Below the pieces are notes generated by a model. That model saw nothing but the letters and a program-made list of their open reading frames with translations, was not told the DNA's origin and searched no databases. Shown here one piece after another: positions 141 through 59,280 of a stretch of 64,000 nt of DNA. The first letter of the stretch is position 1. Each line of letters opens with the position of its first letter. This DNA comes from Nereocystis luetkeana (taxonomy: Eukaryota; Sar; Phaeophyceae; Laminariales; Laminariaceae): the NCBI GenBank assembly GCA_031213475.1, contig JARUPZ010000023.1, positions 9,752,157-9,816,156 of the forward strand, written 5' to 3'. The translations under genes were made by a program, and so were the position numbers.

Positions 141-942
141 TCCTCGGCCTGTTGGCGCGTTTCTACGTACTGCTTTGCTTTAACTCGCACACCTTCCAAA
201 ACCAATCTTCGTTCACTTTTTGCCAAATCCTTCAACCCCAGCCCTCGCTGCAGCACTATTATATTACTGTAGTTTCTGCCAGTCGTTTACCAAATTAGGT
301 TTGTGTACTCTGCCAGATGCTTCGCTTCTCAGTGCCTGTCGTGTCCTTGTCTATCTCCTGAGCATGAGTTCAACCTCAACCTCAACTCCACACTCTCTAT
401 GTGCAATACCAGCGTTCATCCTCTAAACAACCAAAACACGCCTCGTGTATTGAGATTTAATTATCTTCGTTCAATCAATCTTCCATTCTACTTCGTACCT
501 GGTACGACGATGTGTAGCGAGCCGAACCTGCTTCCGAAAGGTGAGAGCTTGCGCGCATGGTTGATTGAGCTCCTCGCAGTCTGCAGCAACACACTGCTTT
601 GTACTAACTGAGCTATATAGTTGACGCTTTGACACGGCAGTATGTAGCAGAGTCGAACAACTGCGGTTGTAGCAGAGTCGAACAACTGCGGTTGAAGGAA
701 CTAACCAGTCTGTTGTTTTGCCTTCCAATCTGTCACGCTTGCCACCTGCACACCAGGTAGCTGTCCTCTTTCACAACCAGCTCGGGCTGGACAAAGCTGG
801 CGACTTTTGTGGAGATATTTTTCGAACCGCCGTACATGTACCGCGATTATTTTCTCCCGGTATATATTTCTCGACTCCTTGGAAAAAGAGAACGCCGCCC
901 CGCAATACAATACTGCTGCGGTTTACCTCTTTGTCCAAGAAG

Positions 943-960
943 ATGGTTGACGCACGCAAA
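943..960 (+). CDS. DESI2: tentative first coding exon of the DESI2-like gene
   Basis: ATG at 943 gives MVDARK and ends in phase 0, which would read on as MVDARKVYDLHES. Most family members have about this many residues before VYDL. The donor AAA|GTCTAA is poor, so the true first exon may lie elsewhere upstream. An in-frame TAG at 1901-1903 shows that some upstream exon is needed. Confidence 0.25.
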
Positions 961-3291
961 GTCTAAATGATCACCGTAGTTCCAGGATTTTCCCACAGTC
1001 TGGCGACTGTATAGGCAACCCCTAAAATGACGAAAAAAAAAATGCTATTGTAAAGTGAGGGCCATAGTAAATAGGACCTACGGTACACACAAGAACCTAC
1101 ATACTTCCCTATTTTTACTAACAATATTTTGCCCTATTTACTATGGTCCCCCGTAATAGTAAAACGCTCTGGACACTTTCGCTCCGAGGGAGTCAATTTC
1201 GACCCCGTGACAACCGTGTATATAGCAGAGGCACGATCCGGATGGCAGTCGAGGTGACGGGGATTGGGGTTGGGTTGGCCACGGAGTAACAAATACCAAA
1301 GGATACTCCGCCTCAACCATTCTCTTCGACAAAGTGGTAATTATTTCCGACAAAATGGTAAACTGACCTCGTGCCCCGTGATTGCTTTTTTTCGGGGGGG
1401 GGGGGGGGGGTTCGTTGGTTCCAAAGGCCAGCGCGAAGCACCTCTTTTGGCGTATACTAACTGTACCAGAGTATCTCTGATGGGTTAAAACGTACCCTAG
1501 GACAATGTGGCTTTTCGCAGAAGCGACAGGTTTTCATCCCTCGTTGGACGAAGTCTGGCCCTCTTGAACGGGGCACAGGGCATGTTTCGGGGGGGGGGGG
1601 GGGGGGGCTGTTCATCCCGTGAGCTCACCCAAGTTTCCCACCCCTACCCTACCCTGCACTGTCTTGCCCTACCCTAAGTACTCCTACCCTATCCTGCCTT
1701 ACTCTATCCCCACCTGTCGCTGCCGCACATACCCACCCCTGCTCTATGCTACCCTGCCTTACCCTACCGCACCATTGAGTGCATACTGTGCACCCGCTGC
1801 TACTTGCTGTCTTTGAATAACCCCCGCTCCCCCTTGGGTGCCCCACCCCACCCCACCTCACCCCAACCCAACCCAACCATGACCCCGAACCGGCGGCGTT
1901 TAGGTGTACGACCTACACGAGTCAAACTCATGGCTGCAGCATGTGGGCCTAGGGATGTACCACAGCGGGGTGGAGATCGGCGGGGTCGAGTACACTTTCA
2001 GCGAGGCTGGGATTAGTCAGCACCCGCCGAGGCGGGTGGCCGCGGAGGGCTGCGCCTACAAGACGACAGAGGTGCGCACGCAGAACGTGGAGGCTATGAT
2101 ATGTACGTATGTTGTGTACTCGTACGCTTGTTTCGTACGATGCTTGCAAGGCTCCCCTCCGGGATGTGGTTGACTTGAAATCCCGGGGGGGGGGGGGGGG
2201 GGGGGGGGGGGGTTGAAAAGGGGAAATGTAGGCGCTCCTGCGTATGTTAGCCTGTGTGAGGTCCGCTGGGGTTGTGCGGGTCGATGCTGCCTCTGTCTGA
2301 TTTTTTGTATTCAAACCGTTGCTGTTGTACTGCGCGGGTGCATTTGACATTCAGAACAAGTGTGCGGGTCGGAATCGTCTAGCTCGTTGTGTTCAGGATG
2401 GCACGCCCACAAAAGCGCACCTACAAACAAACACGGTTCGTAGCACCGTTCGTAGCTGTGTCACGATATGAAGACTTTGAGTTACTGCTGCTGTTGCCTG
2501 TGCCATGGATGCTGCTGCTGCCTGTCCCATGGATGCTACGACGTCAAGAGCTACCGCTTACAGCAGCAGAGTGATGCCTGCGCAGATAGTACACAACAGA
2601 AGAAGCAGAGGGCATGATATCATCATCGCGAAATAAAGCTGAAATTGCCCCTGGCCTCCCGGCCCCTACTTCCGTAGGGTATTAACACGCACGCGCACGC
2701 TCACACACACACGCAGCAGCACAGTTCGTGGCTGTCACAATTGGGAAAAATTCGAAGCGCGGCTGTTGTACCGTGGCTGCCTAGCAAAAAACAGCAACAA
2801 GCAGCAGCCTGGCGAAGAACACAAAGTGGAGGAAAACACGACAGTCGGGGAGGTTTCCATGGGCTTTGCGTTGACTCTACTGCTGTAGCTGGGCGGCAGA
2901 CCTCCCCCTGATTACTTGCCAGACTTCCGCGAATCTAAACGCCCAGAGCACGCGCCACGGGCCCCGGCCGGGACCCGCACGTGCGCCGTGGCGTACACGC
3001 GAGCCCCCCTGCGTGTCCCGCAGCCGAGAGCGCAGAAAAGACCCGCGATCGGAGGAGAAAAAGTAGAGGTATTCCGGGGAAAAAGAAGTCAATTTCGTAG
3101 AAAGTAATACCCCGGTATGGTATAGTATACCTGGTACGCGAGTATTATATGCGTGTTTGTACCCCGAGCGTACGACATATAGTGAGAGACGGGCTGCCAA
3201 TTGGCGACGGGGGAACCGTGTGTGGTTGGGCATCGTATCTATTGGCTTCGATATATATATATATATAATTTATATTATACCAGGTATATAC

Positions 3292-3333: not shown

Positions 3334-5304
3334 CCAGTATATATACCAGGTATATTATAAGGATGTTGCCCGCTCCCACGGCGCTTTCTGTGTGTTATTA
3401 ATAGTTCGTGTGTTTGTTTTCGTATACTCTGTACAACCTGGTGGAGCACTTCGGCGTTCGCTCTGAAGCTACGCTACAGTAATCCTGTAATAGTAGCTGC
3501 AGTTGGGACGGACGGAACCGGGAAAGGAGGGCCCCACTGCTGCCGGCGTACAATGTTTTAGGCGTATGCTGCTTCCTGTTTACCGGGTTGGACTACGACA
3601 GCGACCGGCTGGGTTATCGGCAGGGCTCACCCACTCTGCGTTGGTGGCGGCTAGTCCGGCCTTACGACAGAACAATATTTTTAAACGAAACAAGCATGGG
3701 GCACCCTGGTTGGGCTGCCTTGTGAATCTACGATGGCGCTGTGTCGATCCACGTGGCTTACCAATACATGGACACAACCCCCCCCCCCCCCCCCGACCCC
3801 CACCCCCCATACACTAGCCCAGTCAAGCAAAACAGCCCCCCTGGGCTCCCATCGACGCCCGAGGACGTACGTATTGTGTTCTTTGGCCACAATCGCCCTT
3901 TTAAAAGCGTGTCCTCGCAAGTAGCGTTTCGTTTGGGTCTTTTTTGTTCCGTTTCGTTTCGTTTCTCTTCATTTTTTGTTTTCGTTTGTTTCGTGCCCAT
4001 TTGATCGGGTGTCGTTCTCTGCCCCACCTGACCGACTGCCCGCTGCAGGTCCTAGGAGACTTCATCGGGAGCGTGCCGGACATGCGCCGCATTCTGAACG
4101 GGATGCGGGAGGGCGCCTTCGCGGAGGGGGCGTACGACGTCGTCCGCAAGAACTGCAACAACTTTTGCGACGAGTTCGTGTTCGCGCTGGTCGGGAAGCG
4201 CATCCCGTCGTGGGTGAACCGGGCGGCGACCCTCGGGACATGGGCTGGTCTGGGCGAGGTACGTACAAGGTGTTCCCCTGCTGCAGCTTCGCGACCGTGT
4301 CCCTTCTTGTCAGTTCAAGCGTATTCTGGAACCAAACACCATCAATAGTAATTCGTAGCACAGTATTTCCCTCACACCAACCGCCAACATGCGGACACGT
4401 CAGCTGGCGGATCGTATTAACGGTGCGTCTGAAAGTTTTCCAGCCGCTCTGTCACCGACCGACAAGTCTGGCCACCGACGACCACGACCCCCCAACACCT
4501 CACGGCGCTTCGCGCTTGGGTGTAAGCAATGTCTGTCTGCCTGGTGGGTGAAAACCCGACGTGCTCCGTCCCGGCGTTGTAGGGATGCGAGGGTCTAGGG
4601 TTATACGACTACGGCCATGCATGATAATGAGTGTACGCGCCCCTCCCCCCCCTCGTGGACCTCTGACGTGACGAGTTTTCGCATTTCGCGCGATGCCGAG
4701 GATGAGGCCACGACGTGTCGTAGTTGCGCAGCCCTTGTAGCTGTCGAGGCCTCGATGAAGGCTGCAGTCTCTGGATGGTTTTGGGCCGGCTTGCTCTCGA
4801 TCGGAACAATCGGCTGCTCCCCTGGTCATGTTCTCGGGGTGCTGTGGGGGGCGGCACTCCGTGAAACCCCTCGTCCGACCGACCGACCCACGCCGCGCCG
4901 CTGTTCCCCCCCCCGCCTGTCTCCGAATGCGGGTTGCGAGATTGGCGGTCGAACAACCTACGGAAAGCATGTACCCCCCCCCCCCCCCCCCCCCCCGATG
5001 CGTCATCAATGGGCAAAATGCCTAAAGCAAGCAACAAATAAGTACCACTCCCCTCCCCCGCGCCCCGCCGGTGACCCCCGTTTTGGGTTTCCTACAGCCA
5101 CGAAAGGGTAGCGGCGGCGCCGATGGAAGTGGGCAAGACGCAGCGCCCGCGGCTGGAGCACTGCGGTCTAAGGCAAGCGCTCCCCCCTCTAAAGACCGGA
5201 AGGAGTTGACGCAAAAACAGCGAGACCTCTTGGCCAAGATGCGGACCAGCAGAAGCTCGGTGTCGGAGAGGCGGGGGGGGGGGGGTGGAGGAGGAGCGGC
5301 GTAA
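943..5304 (+). CDS. DESI2: DESI2-type PPPDE cysteine isopeptidase (deSUMOylase/deubiquitinase family), spliced
   Basis: The model joins 1904-2071, 4049-4258 and 5098-5304, all in phase 0, optionally preceded by 943-960. The protein of about 200 residues matches the usual DESI2 length. PPPDE proteases remove SUMO or ubiquitin with a His-Cys dyad. The His lies in GLGMYHSGVEI (about residue 26) and the Cys in VRKNCNNFCDEF (about residue 98). The family's IPxWxNR segment is present as IPSWVNRAA. Joining GAG at 2071 directly to GTC at 4049 gives YKTTEVLGDFIG, which aligns without a gap to the family pattern FRKSILIGRTDLG. The tail is Gly/Ser/Lys rich and ends in a G homopolymer run that encodes poly-Gly before the stop. 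Domain and junctions are firm; the start codon is not. Confidence 0.85.
1046..1158. mobile_element. TATTACGG inverted-repeat MITE, diverged left end
   Basis: GGGCCATAGTAAATAGGACC ... CCTATTTACTATGGTCCCCC then GTAATA. This is the GTAAATAGG variant. Confidence 0.8.
1904..2071 (+). CDS. DESI2: DESI2-like exon with catalytic His
   Basis: Starts after the acceptor GCGTTTAG and encodes VYDLHESNSW...GLGMYHSGVEIGG...AYKTTE. Ends at GAG before the donor GTGCGC. The first half of the PPPDE fold, including the active-site His, is here. Confidence 0.82.
2185..2212 (+). repeat. 28-G homopolymer
   Basis: The longest G run in the window, in the second intron of the DESI2-like gene. Other unattached runs lie at about 1394-1410, 1589-1607, 13290-13304, 13646-13668 and 46976-46992. 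C runs lie at about 3778-3794, 4976-4996, 12360-12377, 16389-16410 and 59467-59490. Confidence 0.9.
3252..3358. repeat. AT dinucleotide repeat with TACCAGGTA motifs
   Basis: TA/AT tract interrupted by TACCAGGTA at 3278 and 3344 and TACCAGTA at 3332. Intronic. Confidence 0.85.
4049..4258 (+). CDS. DESI2: DESI2-like exon with catalytic Cys
   Basis: Acceptor CGCTGCAG, donor GAG|GTACGT, 70 codons in phase 0. Contains the KNCNNFCDE nucleophile motif and IPSWVNR. The 2.0-kb intron before it holds a 28-G run and AT microsatellites. Confidence 0.9.
4497..4652 (+). repeat. C-tailed dispersed repeat
   Basis: Contains GCGCTTCGCGCTTGG, GGTGGGTGAAAACCCGAC and ATACGACTACGGCCATGCAT, ending in a C-rich run. 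It lies in the last intron of the DESI2-like gene and is one of at least ten copies in the window. Confidence 0.75.
5098..5304 (+). CDS. DESI2: DESI2-like last exon
   Basis: Acceptor TTTCCTACAG, phase 0. Basic, Ser-rich tail (KDRKELTQKQRDLLAKM) ending in seven Gly encoded by a G run (about 5273-5290), then Ala-Ala and TAA. The glycine count probably varies with the homopolymer. Confidence 0.75.
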   Translation, partial: PRKGSGGADGSGQDAAPAAGALRSKASAPPSKDRKELTQKQRDLLAKMRTSRSSVSERRGGGGGGGAA

Positions 5305-6640: not shown

Positions 6641-6641
6641 C

Positions 6642-6757
6642 TATTACGGGGGACCATAGTTAATAGGACCTATGGTATAGATAAAAACCTACCTGGTATA
6701 TAGTTGACCATTTTTACTAACAATATTTGGTCCTATTAACTATGGCCCCCCGTAATA
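6642..6757. mobile_element. TATTACGG MITE with internal CCTGGTA insertion
   Basis: Complete copy with both inverted ends, GTTAATAGG variant. TACCTGGTA at 6691 sits where other copies read CCTACATATTT. Confidence 0.9.
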
Positions 6758-8772: not shown

Positions 8773-8881
8773 ACCATTACGGGGGACCATAGTTAACAGG
8801 ACCAAATATGGTTAGTAAAAATGGTTAAACATCTAAGTTTTTATGCATACCATAGGTCCTACCAGGTATTAACTATGGTCC
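8773..8881. mobile_element. TATTACGG MITE, right end truncated, with CCAGGTA insertion
   Basis: The right arm reads GGTCCTACCAGGTATTAAC, against GGTCCTATTAAC in other copies: an exact 7-bp insertion at a TA. The element stops at CTATGGTCC. Confidence 0.85.
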
Positions 8882-9671: not shown

Positions 9672-12600
9672 GGAGGTAGCGGTGGCGGTGAGCGATAGAG
9701 GCGGGTGGTCGCGGTGAGGGAGTACAGCGCTTCAAGTACCACTTGTTGGGAGGAAGTGGTCGGTTGACCTAACCTGTCTCAAGAGACCGGCGCATACAGC
9801 TATTAATAACCCTAGCCCAGAGCCAAATCAGACCACAATCAACCATTGGTTGTTGGCGCAAAAGTCCCCGTTTGTAAGCGGTTGGCTTGAAACCAGCCTG
9901 TCTTAAAAAAGAGACCCAACACAACCAACAACCCCCAACGAACCCAGAGCCATTTTCGGACCGAATCCCCCCATTTTGTCGTTATCATAGCGCAAAATAA
10001 TCCCATTGCCTCGTGAACAGTGCTCAGTGTAAACATAGCATTTCCGGGGACCACAGTAAATAGGACCAAATATTGTTGGGAAAAATATTTACTGAGGGTA
10101 GGTTTTTTGTGCATTACCGTAGGTCCTATTTACTGCCGTCCCCCGGTAATAGTGTACCCACCCCAACCATTTTATCGGTCAAAGCGGTGACGACCTGCCG
10201 GTCACGGTAGCCGTGTCGGTACGATAGCGGTAGAGGCGGTGGCGGCGATAGCGATAGAGGCGGTGGTGGCGCTGGCGGCGGTAGAGGCGGTGGTGGTGTA
10301 GGCGCCATAGCGGTGGGCTAATAATAATAATAAAAAAAAAAATACGACGGAAAAAAACAGCGTATTCCACTCTGTCCCTATCTATAGGCACCGTTTTGTT
10401 CACTAAATGTTCAATGGAAACGGCCCCCTATATTTACAGAGTGGAATATACATATAAATACATGTGCCCACGCACGCAAATAATCCAATGACCCGTAGTC
10501 CTGTTGAAACTATTCCGGAACAAAATAGAAAAATAATCGGTCTACTACTATCATATGTATGCCGTCTTGTAGCCGGTCTCTTCGGGCCAAAGCAGCTGAG
10601 ATCAACGGCAGTCCTGTTGAATCTGTTCCCGAAAAGTCCCTCCACTCGCGAATACTGGTAGTATAAAGCTCTCGCGAATCAGGGCTGACGATCTTGCGAA
10701 AGGCCACCGAAACGCCCCCACGGCGACCGACCAGAGAAAACGAATTTATAGTTTTGCTTATATATACCAGTATACCTGGTATATAATACCACAGCGTCGG
10801 TTACACAAAAAAACAGCTCGGGCCTGGCGGACCAATGCAAGGGGATATGACACATACGGCAAAAAAAACGCCACAACAGAAGCGGAACGCCACGAGTTCT
10901 GCCCCGACACTACTCGGAGCGTGCCTGAGCGCTCTCACTATTAATAGCCATGCTTGATACCACTCTAAATCCCGAAACAGAACGAACGTTTTGACTAATT
11001 ATTACTACACAAATACTCCCATGTATTTTGAGACATAGTGGTAGACCATTAATCGACGGCTTGCAAAACCCTTACAGCTACGCTTTTTTCACGCGGTGTG
11101 CCTGGGGACCCAAAATAGGTGAGGGGAGCGGCCGGAGTGTTCGTACAGAAACGAGGCTTTTGCCCAGGGCGGGGGGCAGAGGCGGGCAGATTGCGGTTCG
11201 GGTATAGATCTAAATATTACACTGCTGTGAGTACGGAACAAGGGGAGAACGCGAGTGCTTTCCTTTCGTTGATCCGGTGTAATTTGTGGGTTCCCTGAGA
11301 CTGCTATATACTGCTGTACGTAGGGAACGAAATAAGAATGTGACTTCTTTCGCTATGCGTTCAGCGGGTGTTGGGAGGGGGGTGGGGGTGTACTTGATAG
11401 GAGATACATACTCGATATCATGCATGGCCGTAGCCGTATGACCATAGACCCTCGCATCCCTACAATGCCGGGACAGAGCATGTCGGGTTTTCACCCACCA
11501 GGCAGACATTGCTTGCACCGAGCGCGAAGCGCCGTGAGGTGCCTGGCGAGTCGCATGGAGGGTGAGCTGCATCCTACTAAGAACCGCTTTCAAGGCGGAC
11601 TTGCAAAAGGGAGTGTACTGGGGGGGGGGGGGGGGGGTTCTGGGTTCCTGAGACATTTGGTCCACGATACAACGCGAAACGCACACACATATACACACAG
11701 GAAATACAGGTCAAACACATGAACGCAACTACACGCATATCAAGCATACACCAACCTCAAACACCACCATCAATACTAATACCGACGCAAAAACCGCACA
11801 GGCACGTAAAACGCAGCTCAGTGTCGCGACGCCCCAAAACACGCATACATGCTCCTCCCTCCCTCCCTCCCTCCCTCCCTCGCAGTAAAAGAAGCCGCAA
11901 CAACTAAAAGGGGGACCCTTCTACCCTCTTGCCTGGAGAGAGGTGCTCATGGTCTTGCCGTACAGCCAGAATGACCAAGCCAGGAGGCAGGCGTTGTACA
12001 CGGTGTAAAACACCACCATCTGCCGAACCACGACACACCGACCGCACAACACCGCGAGCAAAACAGCACAAACACACAGGACAACCACAGCACAGATACA
12101 GCAGCAGCAACAGAAGAGCACGAATACGCCACGACATGGAAACAGAGCACAGCACCAAGCACCACAGAACAGCACAGCAGCACACGGCAAGGACGAGGGT
12201 CAGAGAGAGGAGGAGGAACAACAACAACGGCGTGTGAAAACGAAAAACGCCTGTTCAACGAGTACGGGCAGAAGGGGATGCTGGGGGATTCATTTAGTAC
12301 AGTTTGGCATAGTAACGCGAGCCCCGTTGCGAAAAGGAAGCGGGGGACACGATGGAGCCCCCCCCCCCCCCCCCCCCACCCCTCGCCTCCCCCACGGGTA
12401 GAATTTACGCTTTTAGAACCACAGTCCCGTTTTGGGGACAAGCCAGTCAAATTCCTAGTAGTTTGTCCCCAAAACGGGACTGCAGTCCTAAAAGGGTTAA
12501 CTGGCCAAGAAAAAGAGGAGGGAGAGAGGGGGGGGAGAGGAGGGGGGGGGGGGGGGCGTGAGCCGCCAGGGGGGGGGAAGACAGGAGAAAGAGAGGAGGG

Positions 12601-15600
12601 GGGGGAGGAGGGTAACGTCGAGGCGGAAGAAGAGGGTGGAAGGACAACTAGGAAAATACTAGAACAATGGGGGGGAGGGGGGGGGGGTGTACTCATGCAT
12701 GCAATGTACCAGGTATGATCGTAGTCGTATGACCTATGATGAGAACGGGTAGGGTGGGTAGAACATGCGGCATCACCCGTGGTCAAGGTGTTGCCGGGTA
12801 TGTACTCCCGCGGCCACACGTGCTGCGACAACTACTACTAGACAAACCACAGACCACCAGCCAACAGAGATTGCCACGGACTCCCTAAAACACCAACAGA
12901 CGAAAAACAAAAGCCAGGTTAATTCCTGGTGGAGCCTACGTAATCCATTCAGAAACCGTGGAGAGGGGGGGGGGGGGGGGGGGGGGTGTACTCGATATGA
13001 GATATGCACACGATCTCATGCATGGCCGTAGTCGTATGACGAGGCGGGGGGGGGGGGGGGGGGGGCGAGGGTCGAAAAACGCCATTCGAGTTTAAAAACC
13101 TCACATACCTACTGCAATACCCGATATAAACGATAAATGCACCACGTTGACCTCTCGCGCGCTCCCGCCGCCGTTACCGTAGCCCTCCCTCGCGCTGCCT
13201 GTTCAACAACACCAAGCCCGCCCTTCCCTTCCCCGCCCCCCACAACCAACCAACAAGCCACCCGGCCCACCAGGCGGAAAACAAAGAAGGGGGGGGGGGG
13301 GGGGCGACCCACCTGCATGATATGGCCCATCACAAAGGCCCCGACCGGCTTATTCTGACTCCGAAGGTGCTCAATAGGCAGACCCAGCCAAGGGTAAGAG
13401 AAGGCCAGCACGCGCTGCCAGGGGGGGGGGGGGTGATGCGAGAGGGTAGGCGGAGCGCGCGCGAGCGCGCGTGGGGAGGGGGTGCACTCAAGTCTCAAGT
13501 CATTTACCGCCGTAAGGGGCGACGGGGGGGGGAAGGGACAAGGGGGGACAGAGGGACGGTGAAAAAAAAACCAACTCGCTCCGAAATCAGAACAACAGAA
13601 AGACGATACTCTTATCACGTCAGACCAGCGCCGTGCCATTCACGTCGGGGGGGGGGGGGGGGGGGGGGTTGAACGCTCCGAGGGAGCCCAGGCCAAAAGC
13701 CACCCACAGAAAACGTCCCGCGGCAACGAAGCCAACGACTTGCCGGTTCGGAAAGTACGAAGCAGCAGCACAACCCATCGCGGCAACTACAACTACAGCA
13801 GATACCGGTACGCGTCTGGTCCAGAAAGTAAAAAAATAAAAAATAAAAATAAACGGACCACGACCTCAAGGCGATCAACCAATCATCATTGATATTTAAT
13901 AGTTGGCTCAGGAGTTTTGCACACGCTTCGTATGTTGTGGTCTGCAACCCCCACTACCAATGCATCGTAGCCGTCTCTGCTGCTGCCGTACTACACAACG
14001 TCGCTTTGTTATTCACGCGCCGTCAGAGAGGGGGAACAAAAAAAAAGCAGCACCGAATAGTCTGAAAAAAAAAAGAAAAAAAAAGGACGAGATAGGAGGG
14101 AAGGCGGCGGGAGGGAGGGGGGTGGGGAGAGGGGGGAGGGCGTACTCATTTGTTGCTTGCTTTCGTCTTTCGACCATTGACCACGCATCCCTTTCGAGAC
14201 AGAGCAACGTTCCTGCTCCTGAAAAACAGGGACACCTTCAACATTAGGGGGCGCTCATTACGTTTTTCCCCATGACCCACGAGTATCACATACCAGGTAA
14301 GAAACTTTCCTCTACCGTAATGCCCCCCCCCCCCCCCCGCCCGCCCCCTTTTCCTGTTTCGCCCGCCGCCTGCGGCCACCATCTATTCCTCACGATGGAG
14401 GACATTTTTGTCCGTTCTTCTTTTATCGTCGTCGCCCTCACGTTTATGTCGGGGCCGTACCACCCCGTTCTCTCCATCAGCATCGCCATGGGGAAAATGA
14501 CCACCACGCCGGAGCTCAGCAGCGTCCGCACGGTCATGGCGGTCACCGTCGACATGAGGACGAAGGCCGTGATCGATCGGAGCACCACCTGGGCCTTGAA
14601 CGCCAATGTGAAGAAAAATCGCTCGGCGCCTGATGACGGCTCCGGGTCCTTGGCCCACATCCACTCCCCTCCGGTCTTCCGACATAAAAAGGCGGAGAGG
14701 GGAGGAGGGGGGGGTAGGAGGATTATGATACGTGCGTCAGCGATTATTGCATCATAGTTCATATCATATATCCACTATTAATAGTTTCTGAATCGTACTA
14801 TCAATTCAAAGCGCGAGTCTACGAGGGAATAAAGAGCTGACGTATTTTCGCGATTAAAAAAAAGCAACGCACGAGCTGTAGATGGGGGGGGGGGGGGGGG
14901 GCTCTGCTGTGGCCCCGGATCTGCGTTTACGCTTATTAATAGGAGCGAGAGAGAATAAGAAGGGCGAAGGACAATAAATGGGATAGAAACACAAGAAAAA
15001 AAAAAAATGCCGAACTTACAGTAGGCATTTGCTGCAGCGGCGGAAGACAAGAAAAAAAAAAAAAAATGTAATACGACAAGACACCGACAACAGCAACAAA
15101 CATGAACACCGCCAGAACCAACAAACGATTATACAAAAATCGAAAGCATATACAGGCCACACAAAAAAACAGCAGCGTTCCCCCCCCCCCCTCCCGCCCA
15201 CCGGGATCTCCCCCCCCCCCCCCCCGCTCCCTCCCACTCTCCCGCCCACCTTGGTGTTCTTCAAGAGCCCCTTGGACTTCATGGCGAACATAAACATATT
15301 CACCATGATCACGTCGTACCCGACAACCGTGGCCGCGAGCGCGCGCGACACCAGGCCAGCCTCCTTCAAGCATTCGCTCGGCTCAATGGTAAAGTTGACC
15401 TGTATATCCCACAGGCATACGAACAGTGAAAAAAAACAAAACAAAACAAAACAAACAAACAAACAAACAAACAAAAAAAACAGAAAAAAAACGGGACGAC
15501 AGAAGACAATCAGAAAAAACGCAATCACAAAAACATGAGCGGGGAAACACGACGACGAAGAAGAAGAAGGAGAAGAAGAAAAAACAGCGCGCGGGGGGGG

Positions 15601-46400: not shown

Positions 46401-49175
46401 AAAAAAAAGCATGTGTGTGTTTGTGGATGAAGTCGGAAGCGTCTGTACTCCTACTACTACTGCTACTACTACCAGCACAACCGTTGATGCGAGAGGGGGC
46501 CGAGGAGGAGGAAGGAGGCGTGGGTGCGAAGCGGGGGAGGGGGGGGGAGGGGGTTTTGCTCTCAGCGGTGTATGTGCGCGTGTGTGATGTTGGAAGTAAA
46601 GTATAGATTTTTTTTGTTGGAGGAGAGGAAAGACATTCGAAAAAGGAAGGAAGAAAGGAAGGAAGGAAGGGAGGAAGGAAGGGAGGGAGGAAGGAAGGCG
46701 TGTACGCAGCGTGTAGTCCGTCCGTTGCCCCGTGTTGTGTGTAATGTATTCACGCGAGAGGAAGCAAAGCGGAGCGAAGCAGAGCGAAGCTGAGCGAAGC
46801 AGAGCGAGCGGTGTGTGCGTGTGTAGTGCGCCCGTCGCGTGATCGGGATTCGGTGCACCTTTTAGTAGCGGAGATCGCAGAAATCGCGCGCGTCTGTTTT
46901 TGTGCCCATGCGCGTGTTGCTTGCGCACATCGTGTGTCGGCTGTGTTTTGCTTGCGAGGCATGCCAATGTAGCGGGGGGGGGGGGGGGGGGGAGGGAGGT
47001 GTTTTCTGGCTGAAATAATTCTGACTAATGGGACGGGGCTCTATCCTCGCTTGGGGAACTACGCGCTATACGACCCGCTGCGTACGTTGTTTTGCGTCTT
47101 TCGTTGCGGGACCTACCGGACGTACTGTTGCTTTAGGGCAAACCACGTTATTCGGGGTTGTTCTTGGAGTGTTCGCGCACGACGACTACAGCAGTATTTC
47201 GCACCTGCTGCGGATCACCTACCCACGGTAGCCCTCATGCTGCGCGGTACGTTGTGCAGGGATTTTGTATGCACAGCAGTAGTACATACCCAACTCGGGG
47301 AAAAAAAATACGCCCTTCTAGTAGATCCATCCAGATCACACGGTGCTCCCTTCCCGGCAATTTGAGCTTCAGCAGTAGAGCGCCCCCCCCCCACATTTCA
47401 GAACAAGAACTTGCTTGCATCTTCCCCGAATCTGATATCATCTGCAGTCTACGGTAGTAGATCGTGACGACGTGGATAAATCGATGACCTGTCTATCGTG
47501 TTGTGCAATGTTAACGTTTCTCAAGAGTTTGATTTTTTTTTTTGTTTTGGGGGGGCGAGAGGTGAGGCGTGAGAGCGTCTGCTGTTAATAGTGGTGACGC
47601 GAGAGGCAGTTTTCGTTTTCCTGTACCGTGCGAAAGGGCGGCATGCTCCTCTTGCAGCAGAAGAAATCGATGCATCCCCGCGAAATGCGCAGTTTTTGAG
47701 TTGATCGCGGTTTTTTTTTTTTTTCATGGGACGTACGGACACGCGGTCAGTGCTGCTGGCCGTGTTTTGTGTGTCTCTTTTTTTTTCGCTCGCTCTGATG
47801 ACACGAGGCCGCAGGAAGCAGGCATTATGGCAAGAGTATGTTTAGTAGGGTGTCTACTCTGGGAGTGCCCGAGTATCTACTCAAGTATATACTCTGGGGA
47901 TACTCGGGTATCTATCCGAGGGTGCTAGGGTATCTAACGGAGTATATACCCTGGAGGGAATCAGGTATCTATACGACGGTACTGGGGTATATACCCGAAT
48001 ATATACTCGGGGGGGACTCGGGTATCTATACGAGGGCACTACTGTAGGGTATCTACCCTGGGGGTACTAGGGTATCTATCCGAGGGTACTAGGGTATCTA
48101 CCCGAGCAGGTGCTCTGGGGGCACTCGGGTCCACCTACCTGAGGTACTAGGGCATATACCAGAGGGGCCCAAGATAAGCAGGTTTGTTGCCCGGGTGCAC
48201 CCCAGAGTATGTACCCTATACTAAACACACCCTTACAGTGTACAATGGGTTTTTCTCGAAAAGTTTTGTGGAGAGATGACTTCTCTAGGGTGCATGGTTC
48301 CGGCACAACGTATGATTTTAAACAGACGTGTACGTCCGGCGCTGAGCTTTTAGTGGGAAGAAGGAAGGTGGCGGCGGGGGGGGGGGGGGGGGGGGGGTTG
48401 CTCACATCATGTTGTGGCCGTGGGGGGGGGGGGGGTGAGTGATGTCGGTTATTTGATGAAGTTTGTTTGTGGATTGTTGTGCTATTAGATACAGAAAAAG
48501 GAAAAGCTCGGGTGCGAGGCGAGACCTATATATGCGCCGAGTTTTTTTGTATACTATACACACCGTTTTTTTTTTTTCATGTTATGGTCACAGCCCATAG
48601 GGCGGGACTAGCATGTACGCACGTGTTGCCCATTCTCGAGGATGGACAGCTCTAGAGCTGAGCCATAAAAAGGGCTGACAACGAACGGACACCCAATGAA
48701 AAACCGGAATCGATGGGGACACGAGGGGATGCGCAAGGGGCTGCAGCAACGTGGAGTGTTGATCGTGGTCGGTCGTACTTTAAGAGCAGAAAAACATGAA
48801 TGGAGGGGATAAGAGAGTGGAATACGCCTCTTGTTGCGTTGGTAGCGTTGGCCCTTGATGAGTGTCCTGTGGTGGGAAGGGGAGTGCGTTCGGCAAGGCA
48901 GAAAGGCGAAGGTTGTGGAGGCTGTTTCTACGTAGTCAGCCATATCCGTCGACAAAAATAATATATACCTGGTACATTGTTCGAAGGTCATTCACAGGCC
49001 TCTTTCGCTCATTTATGCATGCCTTTTTTTTACGACGACGACGACGACGACGACGGCGTACATACGTGCACGAGCTTGCCAGATTGGCCGCTTCCAGACC
49101 CGCGGGCTTGGACGCTGCGCAGCAGTTGGGGTTGACGCCCCCAGCCGCTATACTCACTGCAGTGAAAATGCTCAA
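27708..49175 (+). CDS. NEMP: NEMP-type nuclear envelope integral membrane protein, nine or ten exons over 21 kb
   Basis: Exons: 27708-28532, 29842-30033, 30761-30878, 31093-31852, 33464-33569, 36158-36294, 39497-39587, 40488-40561, 44418-44547, and possibly 49075-49175. All junctions keep phase. About 811 residues plus the tail. Order: signal peptide (MRGARTLLVAVLGLHVSS), a Gln-rich then Ala-rich N-terminal extension (to about 230), a luminal domain, and TM helices starting at RLVAGAVLLFLAKSLSESRL then FHYLLSAMLGGIVGA. That stretch matches the family pattern MLFFCGDLLSRSQIFYYSTG. Further TM segments lie in exons 5-8, and LSQSEYEKQGDEYTRQAM matches the conserved plant C-terminal (E/D)EYxxQGxxxTxxAL block. 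NEMP/PNET2 proteins reside in the inner nuclear membrane. The TM core and C-terminal block are firm; exons 1-3 are linked by phase and position only. Confidence 0.75.
29537..29654. mobile_element. diverged MITE relative
   Basis: TATAACGGGGTGGGCATATG ... TACTGTGTACCCCCGTAGTA. An inverted relative lies at about 18432-18496 (GGGTGCTGATTCTTACTAC). It abuts the intact copy at 29652. Confidence 0.6.
29652..29760. mobile_element. TATTACGG MITE
   Basis: GTTAATAGG variant with complete right arm. Confidence 0.9.
29842..30033 (+). CDS. NEMP: NEMP-like exon 2
   Basis: Acceptor CCTCCAAAAG, phase 0, VAPNTVDGSEKGG...VSYVFGVLGGVPGWFSDAVFE. Donor GAG|GTGAAG chosen over GAG|GTTGCG at 30057 on consensus. Both keep phase 0, so eight more residues are possible. 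Confidence 0.5.
30203..30330 (-). repeat. C-tailed repeat, second subfamily
   Basis: G run 30203-30214, AGTACTCATTTATTGCTTGC, CCACGCACCCCTTTCGAGAC. Confidence 0.7.
30761..30878 (+). CDS. NEMP: NEMP-like exon 3 (luminal domain)
   Basis: Acceptor CTCTCAGCTAG, only one open phase: RPVNVSFPPSTSHDTVYLV...MTHVT. Donor CACAG|GTGAGG, phase 1. Confidence 0.6.
31093..31852 (+). CDS. NEMP: NEMP-like exon 4 (luminal domain and first two TM helices)
   Basis: Acceptor TGTGCTCCACAG, phase 1 entry. Gly/Ser-rich middle from GGT and AGC repeats, then the diagnostic VPVYAARLVAGAVLLFLAKS and LSESRLFHYLLSAMLGG. Donor CG|GTGAGA, phase 2; the apparent stop TGA at 31854 is inside the donor. Confidence 0.78.
32012..32103. 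repeat. hairpin element
   Basis: TCCTTTTAGTGCTGCGG ... CAAACGGGAGTGCTGTTCTA. Confidence 0.8.
32595..32905. repeat. dispersed GATC-rich/CCCACCC-family repeat
   Basis: Array of CAGATAGATCAGA units, then AAGCTGCCGTTACAAGAG, ACGGCTCCCACCCAGCCAG and GCAGACCATACC. Confidence 0.65.
33182..33391 (+). repeat. C-tailed dispersed repeat
   Basis: GGATGCAGCTCACCCTTCG ... CATGCATGAGATCG ... TATCGAGTAC followed by a 22-C run at 33370-33391. It lies 72 bp upstream of NEMP-like exon 5. Confidence 0.88.
33464..33569 (+). CDS. NEMP: NEMP-like exon 5 (TM helix)
   Basis: Acceptor CGGATCGAAG, phase 2 entry (CG|G), VLLFLGLAMWLAVTVGG...LLSSLFTWAL, donor TTG|GTAGGT, phase 0. Confidence 0.78.
33759..34183. repeat. 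large foldback (inverted-repeat) element, about 425 bp
   Basis: Left arm from CTTAGGCCACTTCTTATGC to AGCTGTTTCCCGCTTC is mirrored by GAAGCGGGAAACAGCT to GCATAAGAAGTGGCCTTA, about 165 bp per arm with few mismatches. The loop is itself part-palindromic (GATCCGATCCC / GTTGGATCGG). In NEMP intron 5. Confidence 0.9.
34188..34221. repeat. stacked TACCAGGTA/TACCTGGTA motifs plus TATTAATA
   Basis: Three overlapping 9-mers at 34188, 34195 and 34202 share their TA ends, followed by TATTAATA at 34214. Confidence 0.9.
34376..34484. mobile_element. TATTACGG MITE
   Basis: Complete copy; internal CCTATATATTTCGC serves as the empty-site reference for the copy at 63934. Confidence 0.9.
35015..35262. repeat. 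dispersed GATC-rich/CCCACCC-family repeat
   Basis: AATCTGCCGTTTGG, ACGGCTCCCACGCGGCAAC, AGACCATACCAGG, then ATCTATCTAC repeats. Confidence 0.6.
35519..35625. mobile_element. TATTACGG MITE, left end shortened
   Basis: ACGGGGGAGCATAGTAAATA ... ACTACGGTCCCCCGTAATA. Confidence 0.88.
35877..35985. mobile_element. TATTACGG MITE
   Basis: Intact GTTAATAGG copy, followed six bases later by TACCTGGTA at 35991. Confidence 0.92.
36158..36294 (+). CDS. NEMP: NEMP-like exon 6 (TM helix)
   Basis: Acceptor GCTCTGGCAG, phase 0. AFWRDGFDRFPLAGKALFSA then SSLAGVLITRWQGLFLDEGD. Donor TG|GTACGA lies inside ACCTGGTAC, a near-match to the TACCTGGTA motif, and gives the phase 2 exit that exon 7 requires. Confidence 0.75.
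36868..37950 (+). repeat. large dispersed repeat, arm of a distant inverted duplication
   Basis: Blocks at 36868-37100, 37140-37275, 37300-37700 and 37735-37950 reappear in inverted order and orientation at 57490-57300, 57300-57240, 56460-56155 and 55760-55565. Shared words include CTCGAGGCACGAGGGATGCA and AATTTGATGTACTTTT. No protein function recognised. Confidence 0.75.
38300..38508. repeat. three-unit tandem repeat (about 70 bp) with alternative insertions
   Basis: Each unit carries GTGTTTTCCGAAAACACCTT then TTCGGTACC. Units 1 and 3 continue TGGTATTCGG; unit 2 continues TATTAATAGTATTCGG. Confidence 0.92.
38680..38965. repeat. GATCTATCTGATATGTA array and dispersed-repeat copy (inverted)
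   Basis: About ten degenerate units of GATGATCTATCTGATATGTA follow GGCAGGTTAGGATCTGG, the reverse of the CTGCCGTT-family head. Confidence 0.75.
39397..39425. repeat. four stacked TA-CC(A/T)GG-TA motifs
   Basis: TACCTGGTA (39397), TACCAGGTA (39404, 39411) and TACTGGTA (39418) overlap by their TA ends. Confidence 0.92.
39497..39587 (+). CDS. NEMP: NEMP-like exon 7 (TM helix)
   Basis: Acceptor GATGGCATCAG, donor GTG|GTGAGT (perfect). FNGQTCIRRVLTISGVLLMY then YGVSDAEVGV matches the plant segment FVAWSIRILAAVMILQSSLD. Confidence 0.82.
40027..40138. mobile_element. TATTACGG MITE
   Basis: Intact GTTAATAGG/GTTAAC copy. Confidence 0.92.
40410..40446. repeat. TTG microsatellite
   Basis: About eleven TTG units just upstream of the NEMP-like exon 8 acceptor. 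Confidence 0.95.
40488..40561 (+). CDS. NEMP: NEMP-like exon 8 (last TM helix)
   Basis: Acceptor GCACTACAAG, ALVILALAVPTLAHYARRYS then MWSS, donor AG|GTGGGT, phase 2. Confidence 0.78.
40894..41351. mobile_element. TATTACGG MITE split by a nested insertion
   Basis: Left part 40894-40927 and right part from about 41267 form one element once the 340-bp insert is removed. The right part also carries a CCTGGTA insertion (TACCTGGTA at 41295). Confidence 0.88.
40928..41266 (+). mobile_element. tRNA-derived SINE-like insert in a MITE
   Basis: The start has an A-box-like TGGCTTGGTAGG and a B-box-like GGGTTCAAGTC at tRNA-like spacing (about 40943-41002). The 3' end is A-rich (AAAAAAAATAAAAAAATAAA). 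A target duplication around AAAT is plausible. The body was not recognised. Confidence 0.7.
41867..41990. repeat. hairpin element with a 22-C expansion in one arm
   Basis: Left arm GCAGTCCCATTTTGGGG; in the right arm the expected TTTGTCCCC is extended to about 22 C (41938-41959) before CACCCCAAACGGGACTGC. Confidence 0.85.
42532..42640. mobile_element. TATTACGG MITE
   Basis: Intact GCTAATAGG copy, preceded by a duplicated GTTGTTATTGTACGTA. Confidence 0.92.
43665..43773. mobile_element. TATTACGG MITE
   Basis: GTAAATAGG copy, left end TATTGCGG. Confidence 0.9.
43816..44262 (+). repeat. cluster of four C-tailed repeat fragments
   Basis: 24-C run 43816-43839, then CATACGACTACGGCCATG. GTGCTCCGTCTCGAAAGGG-type copies follow near 43890, 44008 and 44118. 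C runs also follow at 44071-44085 and about 44250. Both subfamilies are interleaved here. Confidence 0.8.
44418..44547 (+). CDS. NEMP: NEMP-like exon 9 (conserved C-terminal block)
   Basis: Acceptor GTGGCGCAG, phase 2 entry (AG|C). SSGWYRAGNKLSQSEYEKQG then DEYTRQAMAALRASTTENWS. Donor AAG|GTTAGT. A C-tailed repeat follows within 40 bp. Confidence 0.85.
44583..44720 (-). repeat. C-tailed repeat between two G runs
   Basis: 18-G run, GTGTACTCGATAGGAGAGAT ... GACGGAGCATGTG, then a 17-G run. Confidence 0.85.
44791..44901. mobile_element. TATTACGG MITE
   Basis: GTTAATAGG copy; the right arm reads CCTAGTATAACTATGG, with an extra GTA at the position where others have CCTATTAAC. Confidence 0.9.
46635..46700. 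repeat. GGAA/GGGA microsatellite
   Basis: GGAAGGAAGAAAGG-type tract. A GAGCGAAGCA minisatellite follows at about 46765-46810. Confidence 0.9.
47855..48165. repeat. imperfect array of GGGTATCTAYCCGAGGGTACT units
   Basis: At least a dozen related 20-25 bp units with partial dyad symmetry (GGGTATCTA ... TATACCC). In the NEMP 3' region. Confidence 0.8.
49075..49175 (+). CDS. NEMP: possible NEMP-like exon 10
   Basis: After GTGCACGAG, phase 0: LARLAASRPAGLDAAQQLGL then TPPAAILTAVKML. It resembles, weakly, the plant tail [20 protein letters not shown]. The acceptor is poor and follows a T run and an ACG microsatellite. The terminal exon remains unproven. Confidence 0.3.
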
Positions 49176-49956: not shown

Positions 49957-50436
49957 TATGGTTAAGGGCACTATGTGGACCAAGGGACCGACTATTACGG
50001 GGGACCATAGTTAATAGGACCAAATATTGTTAGTAAAAATGGTTAAATACATAGGTTTTTATGTGTACTATAGGTCCTATTAACTACGGTCCCCCGTAAT
50101 AGTCGTGGCAGATGTGCCCCTGCCTCTGTTCTAGTCACCTACACAAGGTGCTTGACAATGCTTGAAGGTTAGAGTTTCTTGTATGATCTTGCACTCACGC
50201 CCGATGCCTTCTGAGCGAAAGTAGGGGCGAGATATGTTTATCACCCAGGCAGGCGATAACGTCTGCCAGGTAAGATGATGGGACAGCTGCTGCAAACCAT
50301 AGCACCGCGACAGAGGGGAGGGGATGCCAGAATACCAAAACGCTAGCCCACCTTACCAGGTAAAACGTGGGGGCGCTTGCTACAAATCGTAACGCCGCAA
50401 CAGGGGAGAGGGGAAACCATAACACTAGCCCACCCT
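49957..50436 (-). mobile_element. inverted LTR fragments with a nested MITE
   Basis: GACCAAGGGACCGAC ... GAGGGGATGCCAG and a second partial copy to GGAAACCATAACACTAGCCC are reverse-oriented relatives of the LTRs at 53466 and 55008. Confidence 0.75.
49993..50101. mobile_element. TATTACGG MITE inside an LTR
   Basis: Flanked by GGGACCGAC and GTCGTGGCAG. The related LTR reads GGGACCGACTACTTCTAG, so the insertion is at TA with a TA duplication. Confidence 0.92.
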
Positions 50437-50830: not shown

Positions 50831-51326
50831 AGAAAACACCACCGCAGAGTGGAAGAAAAATACGCCGAGCCTGAGACAATATGGATGGATACGCAACACA
50901 ATAATAACACCATATCTGCACACGCCAGCAAGCCATATACTCTGAATAAAATAGAGGGGGGAAAACGACAGACCATCCAACGCAAAATGTGAGGGCGTCC
51001 CCGCTACACGACACAAAAAAACCCACATAAAAAACACAGAGATACATGCATGACGTTGTCTACGAAAAAACGAAGAAACGAAGATGCCCACATTTAAAAT
51101 TTGCTTGTGACAGGGTCTGCCACACACTTAGTTGTAAAACCGTTTCCTTGGTTGGTAGGGCTGTGGTAACAGCGGCGGTGTTTGTTGTTTTGGTAGATCA
51201 TAACAGGGGAGTATATACCTGGTACCAACAAAGAAACAATGGTTCCATTGACAACTTCATACTTCAATCGATATCGTGTCAACGCGACTGGAAAGAGAGG
51301 AAGAGAGCGAAGAGAGACGGGGGCGA

Positions 51327-56449: not shown

Positions 56450-57092
56450 AATGTTATAAGGATTACCCTGGGCTGGGAAATCGATCGATCTTTTACCCCC
56501 ATGGTAGCTCAGTAGGTAACACCTTCACATTTGACGTCGTCCACGTCACGGGTTCGAACCTCACTCCGAACGTTTCTTTCACAGAAACGCTTGCGCGTGC
56601 ACACCTAAAAAAAACACATATCCCTGGATCCCCAGGTAATGAAACGAAGCGGGTAGGTCACAGCGTACGGACGTATACATATACCAGGTATACGGTTCCG
56701 ACGCCCCAAAGATCCCGCCGTTCCGAGGGGGGGAGAGTGTTATTAGGATGACCTTGGGCTTGATAATCGATCGGTCTTTTACCCCTATAGCTCAGTAGGT
56801 AACACCTTCACATTTGACGTCGTCCAGGTCACGGGTTCGAACCTCGCTTCTCACTTCGGACGTTTCTTTTACAGAAACGCTTGCGCGTGCACACCTAAAA
56901 AACACATCTCCCTGGTTCCCCAGGAAGGTAATGAAACGAAGCGCGTAGGTCAGCGTACGGACGTATGTACGGTTCCGACGCCCCAAAGATCCCGCCGTTT
57001 AGAGGGGGGGAGAGTGTTATAAGGATTACCCTGGGCTGGGTAATCGATCGATCTTCTACCCCCATAGCTCAGTAGGTAACACCTTCACATAA
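56450..57092 (+). repeat. tandem tRNA-like repeat, about 280-bp period, three units
   Basis: Each unit has GATTACCCTGGGCTGGG-like lead, ATCGATCGATCTT, an A-box TAGCTCAGTAGG (56505, 56788, 57065) and a B-box GGGTTCGAACC (about 56550, 56832). The third unit is truncated after CACCTTCACAT. The anticodon arm does not pair convincingly, so these are called tRNA-derived repeats, not tRNA genes. Confidence 0.7.
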
Positions 57093-57492
57093 TTTTTTTA
57101 AAGCTTTCCTCCCTCTCTGCCACAGTGAGCCCCGTCGCCCGCCCCGCGTTAAGCCTGGTGCTCACCGTGGCCCTCGTTCGTCACGTCGACAATGTTGGTG
57201 CTCAGACTGCGTAGCTCTCTCTGTGAACTTCTGAATTCAGCTCGGTCGCGAAAATAAGCACCGCTTGAATGTCATTTTGCGATCCCGAACAACCCTTATA
57301 GACTCGTACATACATACGTACTCAATCGAAATTTTCAGATGGAGGCCAGGCAGAGCCCCGTCCATGCTTCCCTCGTGTCTCGAGGCACACGCGATGCCTA
57401 GGCATGAAAACGGCGGCAACGCTCCTTTCACACCCCCCTCTACCCGCCAGCACCCTGTGACACCCGCGACGGCGCCGGGCTCAGAGGCCAGG

Positions 57493-59280
57493 GACGTACC
57501 AACCGAGCACGCTCAGAGAGTGAGATATCTGTAAGTAGTTCTATGCCAGGTATGGGTTATGCGGATGGTCAAACGGATGGACGGAATCCACAGGGGGCAT
57601 CCAAGTTAGTTACATCTCCGGGGTTTCAGTTGTATGTGGATTATGCAGGAGAGATGGAAAATGGAACAATTTGTTTCTTCAGCAGCTAGCTGCTGTCTAC
57701 ATGCATGCGCCCTGCGCCCACAAGCATCCAGTCCGGGGTTCCGACGTGGTCTGTTCTTAGCTTTTGGGTACTTAGGGTCATTCTTATCGGAGAGCTTTTT
57801 GTCCATATTTTCGACATTTTTTTCGCGCAATTTTTCAATCTTCCATATTTTCCTGTTTTTTTTTTCCAAATATTGGAATGTTAACGAACTTGATATTTTT
57901 GATTCTGGAGAATTTCACGAATAGTGACAGAACGCCTCCGTATATCGTTACATATCTCCAATTATTTCCAAACTTTGGAATTTTTGGAAAAAACGCTCTC
58001 CGATAAGAATGTGTTGAGCCTTAAAAGTACGAACAATTTCACGTTTTTTTTTCTCATTCGTGTCGGCGAGAGGGTGCTCATCCAATCGGTGTAATGCCCA
58101 CCTACCTGCACACAGCACAAAAAAATGCACGTATTATATATATATATCTTCACGTATGGTGCCAGGACTTTCCCGACGCCAGACCGTCCTTCCTTACGTA
58201 CCACGAAGAAATTTCAAGAAGCCCCATCTACCACCCACCACACACGTGAGCACAAAAAAAAGTTGACACTACGTGTCGTACCTGGTATGTATAACATACT
58301 TTTGGTGAAATTGGGATCCTATGTTTCGATTGAGAACACGAAATTCAGTGATCGGTCTGGAAAAAAACAGCGCATGATGGTGTTTGATTAATGACCCCAC
58401 CATCACCGTGACGGTTTTGTACCTTTTTTGATGAAAAAAATACGCGAGTGACATATTGATGCTACTTTTTCGTGTGTATATATGCATGCACAGAAAAACT
58501 AGCAGACTGGTTCTTGATGGTGTTTGATTAACGACCCATCACCGTGGCAGTATAGTGTATACGTACATACTGCTGTAGTCCCGTGTACCGGACTTAATCT
58601 TAAAGCAGGCGATCATGTCGAGCGGCTGCTTCGGGGCGAGAGCCACGAAACTTGAAACTGCCTCTCGACCATGGCATGAAAGAAGAGAAAAAGTGGGAAA
58701 AAAAACTTTTTTGAGCACTATTACCCCGTACACTATTTACTACGGGTATATATTCTACCCATCGTAATCATACGTGCGTGTACTTATACCAGGTACCAGG
58801 TACCTGGTATACTACAATCGACCTGATACAAAATATGTTACACAGAGACAAGCAAAAGGGGAACTCGTGCCCGCAGCAATAGGATTGGTCGCAACATTTA
58901 AAAACCAGTGGCCGATATGATGAAACTGACGTCACCTTGAACGACACAAACAACGTGCCACTCAGGGAAGTCCCACCAACCAGTAACACTCCGTAAAAAA
59001 CTCTGACCAATCAAAACTGCGTGCAGAAAAAAACCTTTTTTCGTCTCTCTACGCAATACGCAACGTTGTCGTCCCCCCGTAGGTGGCAAACAGCACATCT
59101 ATCACCCCTGCTTCTCGGTATTCGTTAATACACTTCACAATAGCTATCTGCACTACTACCTATTATTATACCAGGGTAGGATACTCCCAGGCGTCATACT
59201 ACAGTAGCATGCCAGTTTTGGAACGACCGCGACCTGCATGCTTACTCGAGAACCGCACAGCACCCACCCCCCCCTAAGCT
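57493..59280. other. intergenic, no gene recognised
   Basis: Two copies of GATGGTGTTTGATTAA (58376, 58517) and stacked TACCAGGTA motifs at 58787-58809. No conserved protein motif seen on either strand. Confidence 0.45.
58787..58809. repeat. three stacked TA-CC(A/T)GG-TA motifs
   Basis: TACCAGGTA at 58787 and 58794 and TACCTGGTA at 58801, overlapping by TA. Confidence 0.92.

Follow-up and report, generated by a model that had tools for sequence, protein, structure and literature searches.

What left the short palindrome TACCWGGTA in such numbers in the genome of Nereocystis luetkeana? The question is posed by a window of 64,000 nucleotides (contig 23, positions 9752157-9816156, of an assembly with 465,085,209 bases in 1987 contigs). 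For this window, a first-pass annotation had listed 37 positions of the 9-mer by hand, compared with ~0.5 expected, and had proposed that a transposase leaving a CCAGG overhang made these scars. What we found is a genuine and very large set of excision-type scars, for which no donor has so far come to light. They are probably the footprints of a TA-specific, Tc1/mariner-like cut-and-paste transposon with a long, self-annealing overhang of 5 nt.

The window held 40 exact copies, 23 with CCTGG and 17 with CCAGG in the centre. This strong excess compares with a mean of 0.47 in 100 dinucleotide-preserving shuffles (sd 0.61, maximum 2), and with 0.55-0.6 expected from Markov models of order 2-3. 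By likelihood, TACCWGGTA ranked top of the scored window 9-mers; some 9-mers derived from a miniature inverted-repeat transposable element (MITE) were higher in plain ratio. The 40 units form 33 loci: 29 single sites, one doublet (26785) and three triplets (34188, 39397, 58787). The hand list was largely sound, with 34 exact positions, three misplaced ones (6691 for 6690, 29342 for 29343 and 56692 for 56682) and three overlooked sites (14291, 44764, 50354).

A genome-wide count, which the first-pass annotation had called for, was far from background: 182,395 copies, versus 1,744 of the reversed pattern, our control for all genome counts. They make up ~166,000 scar loci (166,478 arrays). Twenty 10-kb stretches, each starting at position 1,000,001 of contigs 1-20, contained 77 units, or 0.385 per kb, and the whole genome 0.392 per kb. 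With 0.63 per kb, the window is richer than the genome mean of 0.39 per kb, but it is not special.

Alignment of repeat copies revealed that the scars are insertions. The trap was the TTACGGGG MITE, 110 bp long with ends TA-TTACGGGGG, whose sister copies were aligned. TACCTGG or TACCAGG was cleanly inserted at a TA, as 7 bp duplicating that TA, at 6690..6698 (TACCTGGTA, in MITE copy 6640-6758), 8860..8868 (TACCAGGTA, in copy 8773-8881) and 41295..41303 (TACCTGGTA, in the 3' part of copy 41267-41353). Insertions of 6 bp, TA-CCAG-TA, were seen on the minus strand at 20247..20254 (copy 20159-20277) and 63982..63989 (a copy cut by the window end); both are the 4-nt variant TACCAGTA, read as TACTGGTA on the plus strand. 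The exact 6-7 bp TA-duplicating insertions reported earlier for MITE copies were thus found at five places, and a sixth was added on the plus strand at 16583..16593, where copy 16534-16652 carries TA-CCAGGGG-TA, the 7-nt variant TACCAGGGGTA. Duplication of the target TA, as expected of a Tc1/mariner footprint, is directly visible from the sister copies.

The insertions were also surveyed in a larger sample of 317 kb (0.32 Mb), which includes loci L034-L045, taken for their transposase matches. Of the MITE copies that reach 86 bp, 34 in all (one of them two adjoining copies merged), seven carried an insertion: five CCWGG, one CCAGGGG and one CTGG. An unselected census between repeats gave 226 insertions of 3-16 bp, of which 46 duplicate a TA. 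The commonest classes among these 46 were TTAA and CGAC (7 each), A (5), CCWGG and C (3 each), and CCAG occurred once; the census was strict and misses some true cases, 6690 among them. Loci L010-L013 had been chosen for holding doublets. They were excluded from the per-locus and window-versus-rest target logos, the doublet and triplet tally, the one-mismatch decay counts and the sample counts of TACCTGTA and TACCTGGGTA. They were included in the inverted-repeat scans, the insertion census, the MITE-copy tally, the counts of TACCAGTA, TACCGGTA and TACCAGGGTA, the variant flanks, the chi-square test and the target scoring.

The flanks of the scars share a palindromic target motif. Read outward from the TA on both sides, the flanks of the 106 CCWGG loci had a pyrimidine (Y) at +1 in 85% and T in 42% at +3 and in 52% at +6; W stood at +7 in 81%, and +2 was usually A or G. 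Compared with all TA sites, 246 flanks (two per locus and some from related loci, hence not fully independent) gave chi-square p values of 9e-16 at +1, 5e-20 at +6 and 1e-15 at +7. The window (66 flanks) and the remaining sample (160 flanks) agreed, and other TA-N5-TA sites (1,650 flanks) were without the pattern. Insertion into favoured target sites would be expected to produce such a pattern. A palindromic preference around TA is compatible with the Tc1/mariner superfamily, but not exclusive to it.

Two further candidates were rejected by their flanks. TACWGTA might have been the same scar in shortened form and occurred 131 times in the 317 kb, compared with 45.8 expected, but without the motif. 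TACTCGTA (TA-CTCG-TA) was found 44 times versus 10.8 expected in the same sample, and its flanks had no +6/+7 signal.

Scars of other lengths follow a restricted spectrum. On both strands of the 317 kb, TACCAGTA was found 35 times (9.8 expected), TACCGGTA 40 times at 20 places (9.7 expected) and TACCAGGGTA nine times (0.9 expected). TACCTGTA was not enriched (12 versus 12.8 expected), and TACCTGGGTA, counted via its complement TACCCAGGTA, was absent (0 versus 0.8 expected). The excess of TACCAGGGTA over TACCTGGGTA was noticed in the sample first and tested on the genome afterwards, giving 11,422 copies (5,725 + 5,697; controls 409, 195 + 214) versus 1,578 (780 + 798; controls 362, 185 + 177). 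A satellite-like series from contig 1:1304145, mostly spaced 528, slightly inflates the first of these counts. TACCTGGGGTA lies mostly within copies of one repeat family, TACCCTACCTGGGGTATG, and was not counted as independent.

The variants also share targets with the 5-nt scars. CCAG (n = 35) retained the preference at +6 (T) and +7 (A), as did CCAGGG(G) (n = 12). All TA-X-TA classes were then scored for the target motif, omitting variant sites up to 9 bases from an intact TACCWGGTA; the mean of all sites was -0.96. CCAGG scored 1.10 (n = 138), and above the mean were also CCATGG (3.03, n = 3), CCAGGGG (0.75, n = 2), CCAGGG (0.47, n = 9), CCAG (0.24, n = 33) and CCGG (-0.01, n = 20). The scoring matrix was itself built from the CCWGG loci of the 317 kb, so independence holds only for the remaining classes. 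CAG (-1.37) and TTAA (-1.87) fell below the mean, and CG (-0.79), CCCGG (-0.83) and CCA (-0.85) were slightly above it, as was CAGG, discussed below. High scores were reached too by AT-repeat classes, by GGACC and AAAACC, which are MITE parts, and by CCTGA (1.49, n = 8), probably a decayed CCTGG. A single end sequence, 5'-CCAGGGG directly after the TA, would explain the variants if its stagger ranged over 4-7 nt with a mode of 5, and the series fits such a putative end.

Scars were frequently stacked. Genome-wide, 15,917 doublets and 1,689 triplets were counted, versus 2 and 0 in the reversed controls. The ratios from units to doublets and from doublets to triplets were 0.087 and 0.106, and this near-constancy points to a steady chance of further insertion. 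In the sample, 113 loci fill 0.7% of 16,025 TA sites and include 11 extra units (5 doublets, 3 triplets), so that insertion next to a scar was several times likelier than average. Seen from its own outer TA, a scar presents C, T and A at positions +1, +6 and +7, in keeping with the target motif. Among the doublets listed, 59 were tallied by eye, all from contig 1 and not a random sample: 40 had equal centres, 14 were A-then-T and 5 T-then-A. The shortage of T-then-A (p = 0.002; p = 0.06 for A-then-T versus T-then-A alone) agrees in direction with a preference for T at +3. The 15 sample doublets (AA 5, TT 4, AT 3, TA 3) showed no T-then-A deficit.

The scars also decay. One-mismatch copies numbered 274, compared with 121 expected, and this excess equals 0.63 of the intact-copy excess. 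The single-base changes, 150 of the 274 being transitions, hit the flanking TA and the core alike. By our own rough estimate, this corresponds to ~7% change per site if neutral. The scars look like inherited, decaying events.

From what was observed (insertions that duplicate a TA, a shared target motif, the range of variants, the stacks and the count across the genome), we infer an element, its end sequence, its stagger and a repair path. A transposon with both ends 5'-CCAGGGG would insert at a TA and duplicate it. At excision, its transposase would make a staggered break, leaving the outer element nucleotides, mostly five, single-stranded on both flanks. Two CCAGG overhangs could anneal through four G:C pairs flanking an A:A mismatch. 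If the break were then sealed by end joining and the mismatch fixed as A or T, TA-CCAGG-TA or TA-CCTGG-TA would result. An A:A mismatch also accounts for the C(A/T)G footprint of Tc1/mariner elements. Staggers of 4, 6 and 7 nt would produce CCAG/CTGG, CCAGGG/CCCTGG and CCAGGGG/CCCCTGG, while CCTG and CCTGGG are not predicted. Joins of filled-in ends would give CCGG (2+2) and CCATGG (3+3). The outer TAs of a scar would suit the target preference, and later insertions may stack there.

A second family served as positive control. TATTAATA consists of four MITE bases between two TAs: the first two of one TTACGGGG MITE end and the final two of the opposite end. At +1, +2 and +3, G, T and A are preferred by the MITE ends (n = 46) as well as by the TATTAATA sites (n = 62), a target motif different from that of CCWGG. 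Genome-wide, TATTAATA occurred 93,112 times, versus 10,689 for the reversed control, and TTAA ties with CGAC as the commonest TA-duplicating insertion of the census. It is likely the 2+2 nt excision scar of the MITE. The shared flank motif thus places a known element beside its probable footprint in one genome. In the window, TATTAATA lies at 3396, 9801, 10939, 14776, 14934, 19478, 25398, 30066, 34214, 36387 and 38415.

No comparable donor was found for the CCWGG scars. The first-pass annotation had proposed a search for full elements flanked by TA, with CCAGG or CCTGG termini; none appeared in a 276-kb set or at two spacings genome-wide. In the 276 kb, terminal inverted repeat scans returned 29 loose CCWGG-ended pairs, which seem to reflect chance, AT runs, stacked scars or one known repeat. 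Scanning more strictly for TA-flanked inverted repeats returned no CCWGG-ended family. Genome-wide, TACCAGGG...CCCTGGTA at 116-176 bp matched 21 unrelated places (reversed control 348), and TACCAGGGG...CCCCTGGTA at 178-238 bp had no exact match (reversed control 272). Both controls are probably inflated, because MITE ends resemble the reversed pattern. No donor emerged when end sequences were sorted by target score. The PF13358 (DDE_3) profile had no match in the genome; neither had PF01359, a weak result, as its controls were also silent. The pogo-type profile PF03184 had 28 genome matches, and the 12 of these loci that were examined (~3.4 kb each) contained no CCWGG inverted-repeat pair.

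Three of the pogo-type loci, L042, L043 and L044, show other inverted repeats. At L044:235-2422, ~2.2 kb around a pogo-type DDE_1 match are bounded by near-perfect 27-bp inverted repeats starting TACAGTACCGGCCAG. At L042:1036-2951, a second pogo-type locus has TA-flanked inverted repeats starting GCACCGGGGTGCGATAAA.

The missing donor and the silent DDE_3 profile weigh against the CCAGG-overhang excision scar, and so do several other points. The ~166,000 scar loci stand without a visible element, an unusual ratio next to that of the TTACGGGG MITE, with its 34 copies of at least 86 bp and 72 TATTAATA sites. An overhang of 5 nt, as suggested by the scar mode, would exceed those reported in the papers cited here and below (2-3 nt in animals, 1-4 nt in rice and bamboo) and would differ from the short 3' overhang expected of Tc1/mariner. 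TACCTGGGTA, far rarer than TACCAGGGTA, is still about fourfold above its reversed control. CCGG (n = 20) has its T preference at +5, not +6, and CCAG scores below CCWGG (0.24 versus 1.10). CAGG, which the model does not predict, also lies slightly above the mean (-0.68 versus -0.96, n = 12). On the other side stand the empty sites in sister repeats, the palindromic target motif, the variants consistent with annealing and the independent MITE scar. The feature works like a Tc1/mariner footprint. It was not filed as one because neither a transposase nor an inverted repeat is tied to it, and because the scar is longer than reported; Tc1/mariner membership is unproven.

Excision with a different geometry would need no unusual stagger. 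If the element ends began with CCA and had the usual overhang of 2-3 nt known from Tc1/mariner (PMC3878927), a 3+2 join would give CCA+GG or CC+TGG, with CCGG (2+2), CCAG (3+1) and CCATGG (3+3) as side products, and these three are indeed enriched, with above-average target scores. However, CCAGGG, with its 11,422 copies (a few of them satellite), and CCAGGGG would need an added G. Nor does this geometry explain why 3+2 joins would prevail, while two CCAGG overhangs can pair with one another; we regard this geometry as unlikely, though worth some weight. A true micro-insertion, named earlier as an alternative, would have a transposase with pre-cut ends, or templated repair, write 5-7 nt directly into a TA that had at no time held a long element. 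It would agree with the lack of an element with such ends in the 276 kb, at the 12 transposase loci and at the two genome-wide spacings. Against it, the variant series obeys the annealing rules for one end sequence, and for the second family in this genome both the element and its scar can be seen, which leaves micro-insertion a slim chance. Scars without donors, and their TA boundaries, would also result from programmed or near-complete elimination, in which the host runs the excision, much as in ciliates with their internal eliminated sequences, and scars alone remain in the sequenced tissue. The internal eliminated sequences of the ciliate Paramecium have TA boundaries. But the scars are of different lengths and show partial decay, and thus record inherited old events, not fresh ones; moreover, we know of no split between germline and soma in kelps. 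We hold this version to be slimmer still. A related and rather doubtful idea is that the ~166,000 loci record a transposon that is gone or nearly gone, its excision by a 5-nt-stagger transposase being almost always final through host-run or developmentally timed elimination. If the donor was lost, the scars alone record its end sequence and its target code.

Two readings without any transposition were given next to no credence. Replication slippage or a 7-bp satellite would account for the two- and three-unit arrays and for the equal centres of 40 of the 59 listed doublets. Yet ~91% of the arrays are single (14,228 of 166,478 have at least two units), array size falls at a near-constant ratio, and 19 of the 59 doublets mix A and T. 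The palindrome and its high count would equally suit a functional motif under selection, regulatory or a CCWGG methylation site. Such a motif should not appear as an extra insertion relative to sister repeats, nor bring a target motif in its flanks. Its one-mismatch copies, in excess on TA and core alike and with more than half of them transitions, resemble neutral decay. Selection of CCWGG sites, the other alternative named earlier, is accordingly disfavoured as strongly as slippage. Excision of a transposon with CCAGG overhangs remains our preferred explanation.

The remaining window loci were mapped by exact match unless stated otherwise. Single TACCTGGTA sites lie at 496..504, 3128..3136, 18308..18316, 25334..25342, 29343..29351, 38157..38165, 44764..44772 (one of the overlooked sites), 48966..48974, 51216..51224 and 58279..58287. 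Another, at 35991..35999, is immediately beyond a MITE copy; that at 10773..10781 adjoins the 4-nt variant TACCAGTA at 10765, and that at 24364..24372 is followed by a broken second unit. Single TACCAGGTA sites were found at 3278..3286 (in AT-rich surroundings), 3344..3352 (with TACCAGTA at 3332), 12707..12715, 14291..14299, 18670..18678 (with the 6-nt variant TACCATGGTA at 18688), 18707..18715, 19094..19102, 34910..34918, 35269..35277 and 50354..50362, those at 14291 and 50354 being the other overlooked ones. The array scan placed the doublet at 26785..26800 and the triplets at 34188..34210 (A-T-T, followed at 34214 by TATTAATA, which belongs to the second family), 39397..39419 (T-A-A, then the 4-nt variant TACTGGTA at 39418) and 58787..58809 (A-A-T). 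The variant scan added TACCAGGGTA, a 6-nt variant, at 59169..59178 on the plus strand.

Repeat alignment placed three sites in tandem repeats. In a 66-bp repeat (38293-38506), units 1 and 3 carry TACCTGGTA, at 38345..38353 and 38490..38498. The window loci are not all independent, because these two are tandem copies and the MITE-resident loci sit in related sequence. Unit 2 has TATTAATA (38415) at the same place, perhaps from MITE insertion and excision within a decayed CCTGG scar. In a 277-bp repeat (56452-57090), unit 1 carries TACCAGGTA at 56682..56690; unit 2 lacks it together with about six more bases, and the two units therefore do not differ by a clean 7 bp. The 277-bp units also contain a tRNA-like stretch, GCTCAGTAGG ... 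GGTTCGAACC, in which ARAGORN called no tRNA, and are possibly derived from a short interspersed nuclear element (SINE). Another SINE is probably the ~340-bp insertion at 40926-41266, which splits a MITE copy and has tRNA-like promoter boxes and an A-rich tail.

Elsewhere in the window, a reverse-transcriptase RNase H fragment (PF17917) stands beside repeated retroelement-like pieces (52347-52931 and 53467-55120), and long poly-G/poly-C tracts are frequent (e.g., 2185-2212 and 7094-7193). Three exons predict a PPPDE-domain protein that matched one contig protein at 93% identity and, of the named proteins, those of brown algae: 87% to jgi/Undpi1 (presumably Undaria), 69% to Ectocarpus siliculosus and 65% to Ascophyllum. 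The window is eukaryotic, and these matches suit a brown alga, probably a kelp (Laminariales). No viral link was seen: the doublet pattern matched nine viral contigs, no more than chance by a rough estimate, and the MITE core matched none of the viral contigs. An Rfam scan returned nothing at gathering scores.

Work on excision scars usually relies on assays and small numbers, while this single genome holds ~182,000. They allow cut-and-paste events to be counted and, by their decay, roughly dated, and they let repair outcome, target choice and end sequence be read without the element. At 7 bp, they would be too short for ordinary repeat annotation. Their empty and filled alleles could serve as strain markers. 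If the self-annealing 5-nt overhang is right, TA-specific transposases have a wider range of staggers than was known to us. We found no earlier report of TACCWGGTA scars in the literature searched, which covered few subscription papers.

Known systems resemble the scars in part. The brown-algal host is shared with the Mariner-Tc1 elements of Ectocarpus, 17 families with almost 12,000 copies, mostly non-autonomous (PMC12477816); the available text of that survey has no word beginning with "footprint" or "excision". Osmar5 and Ppmar2 leave scars of 1-4 nt (PMC9632168), and they and the Stowaway MITEs resemble our loci in having short scars, which in their case keep relic bases of the element end after cleavage at TA (PMC9632168, PMC3660474), as we propose here; the scars of this genome are longer, at 4-7 nt and most often 5. 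The footprint of Sleeping Beauty and Frog Prince is C(A/T)GTA, and Tc1/mariner overhangs are given as 2 or 3 nt (PMC3878927); a CAG footprint is also described (PMC8151067). Shared with our loci are the TA duplication, the central A or T and, in our model, a short terminal overhang at the excision site. Unlike in these systems, the core here is the 5-nt CCWGG instead of the 3-nt CWG, ~166,000 inherited loci lie in one genome, no donor was found, and the TACWGTA sites of this genome are without the CCWGG target motif. In end sequence, there is a likeness to the mariner element Mos1. In vivo, mariner excision cuts the 5' strand 2-3 nt into the element, and the 5' inverted repeat of Mos1 starts, after the TA, with CCAGG (PMC2642840). 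It continues as CCAGGTG, unlike the CCAGGGG proposed here, but it sets a precedent for an element end that starts with CCAGG.

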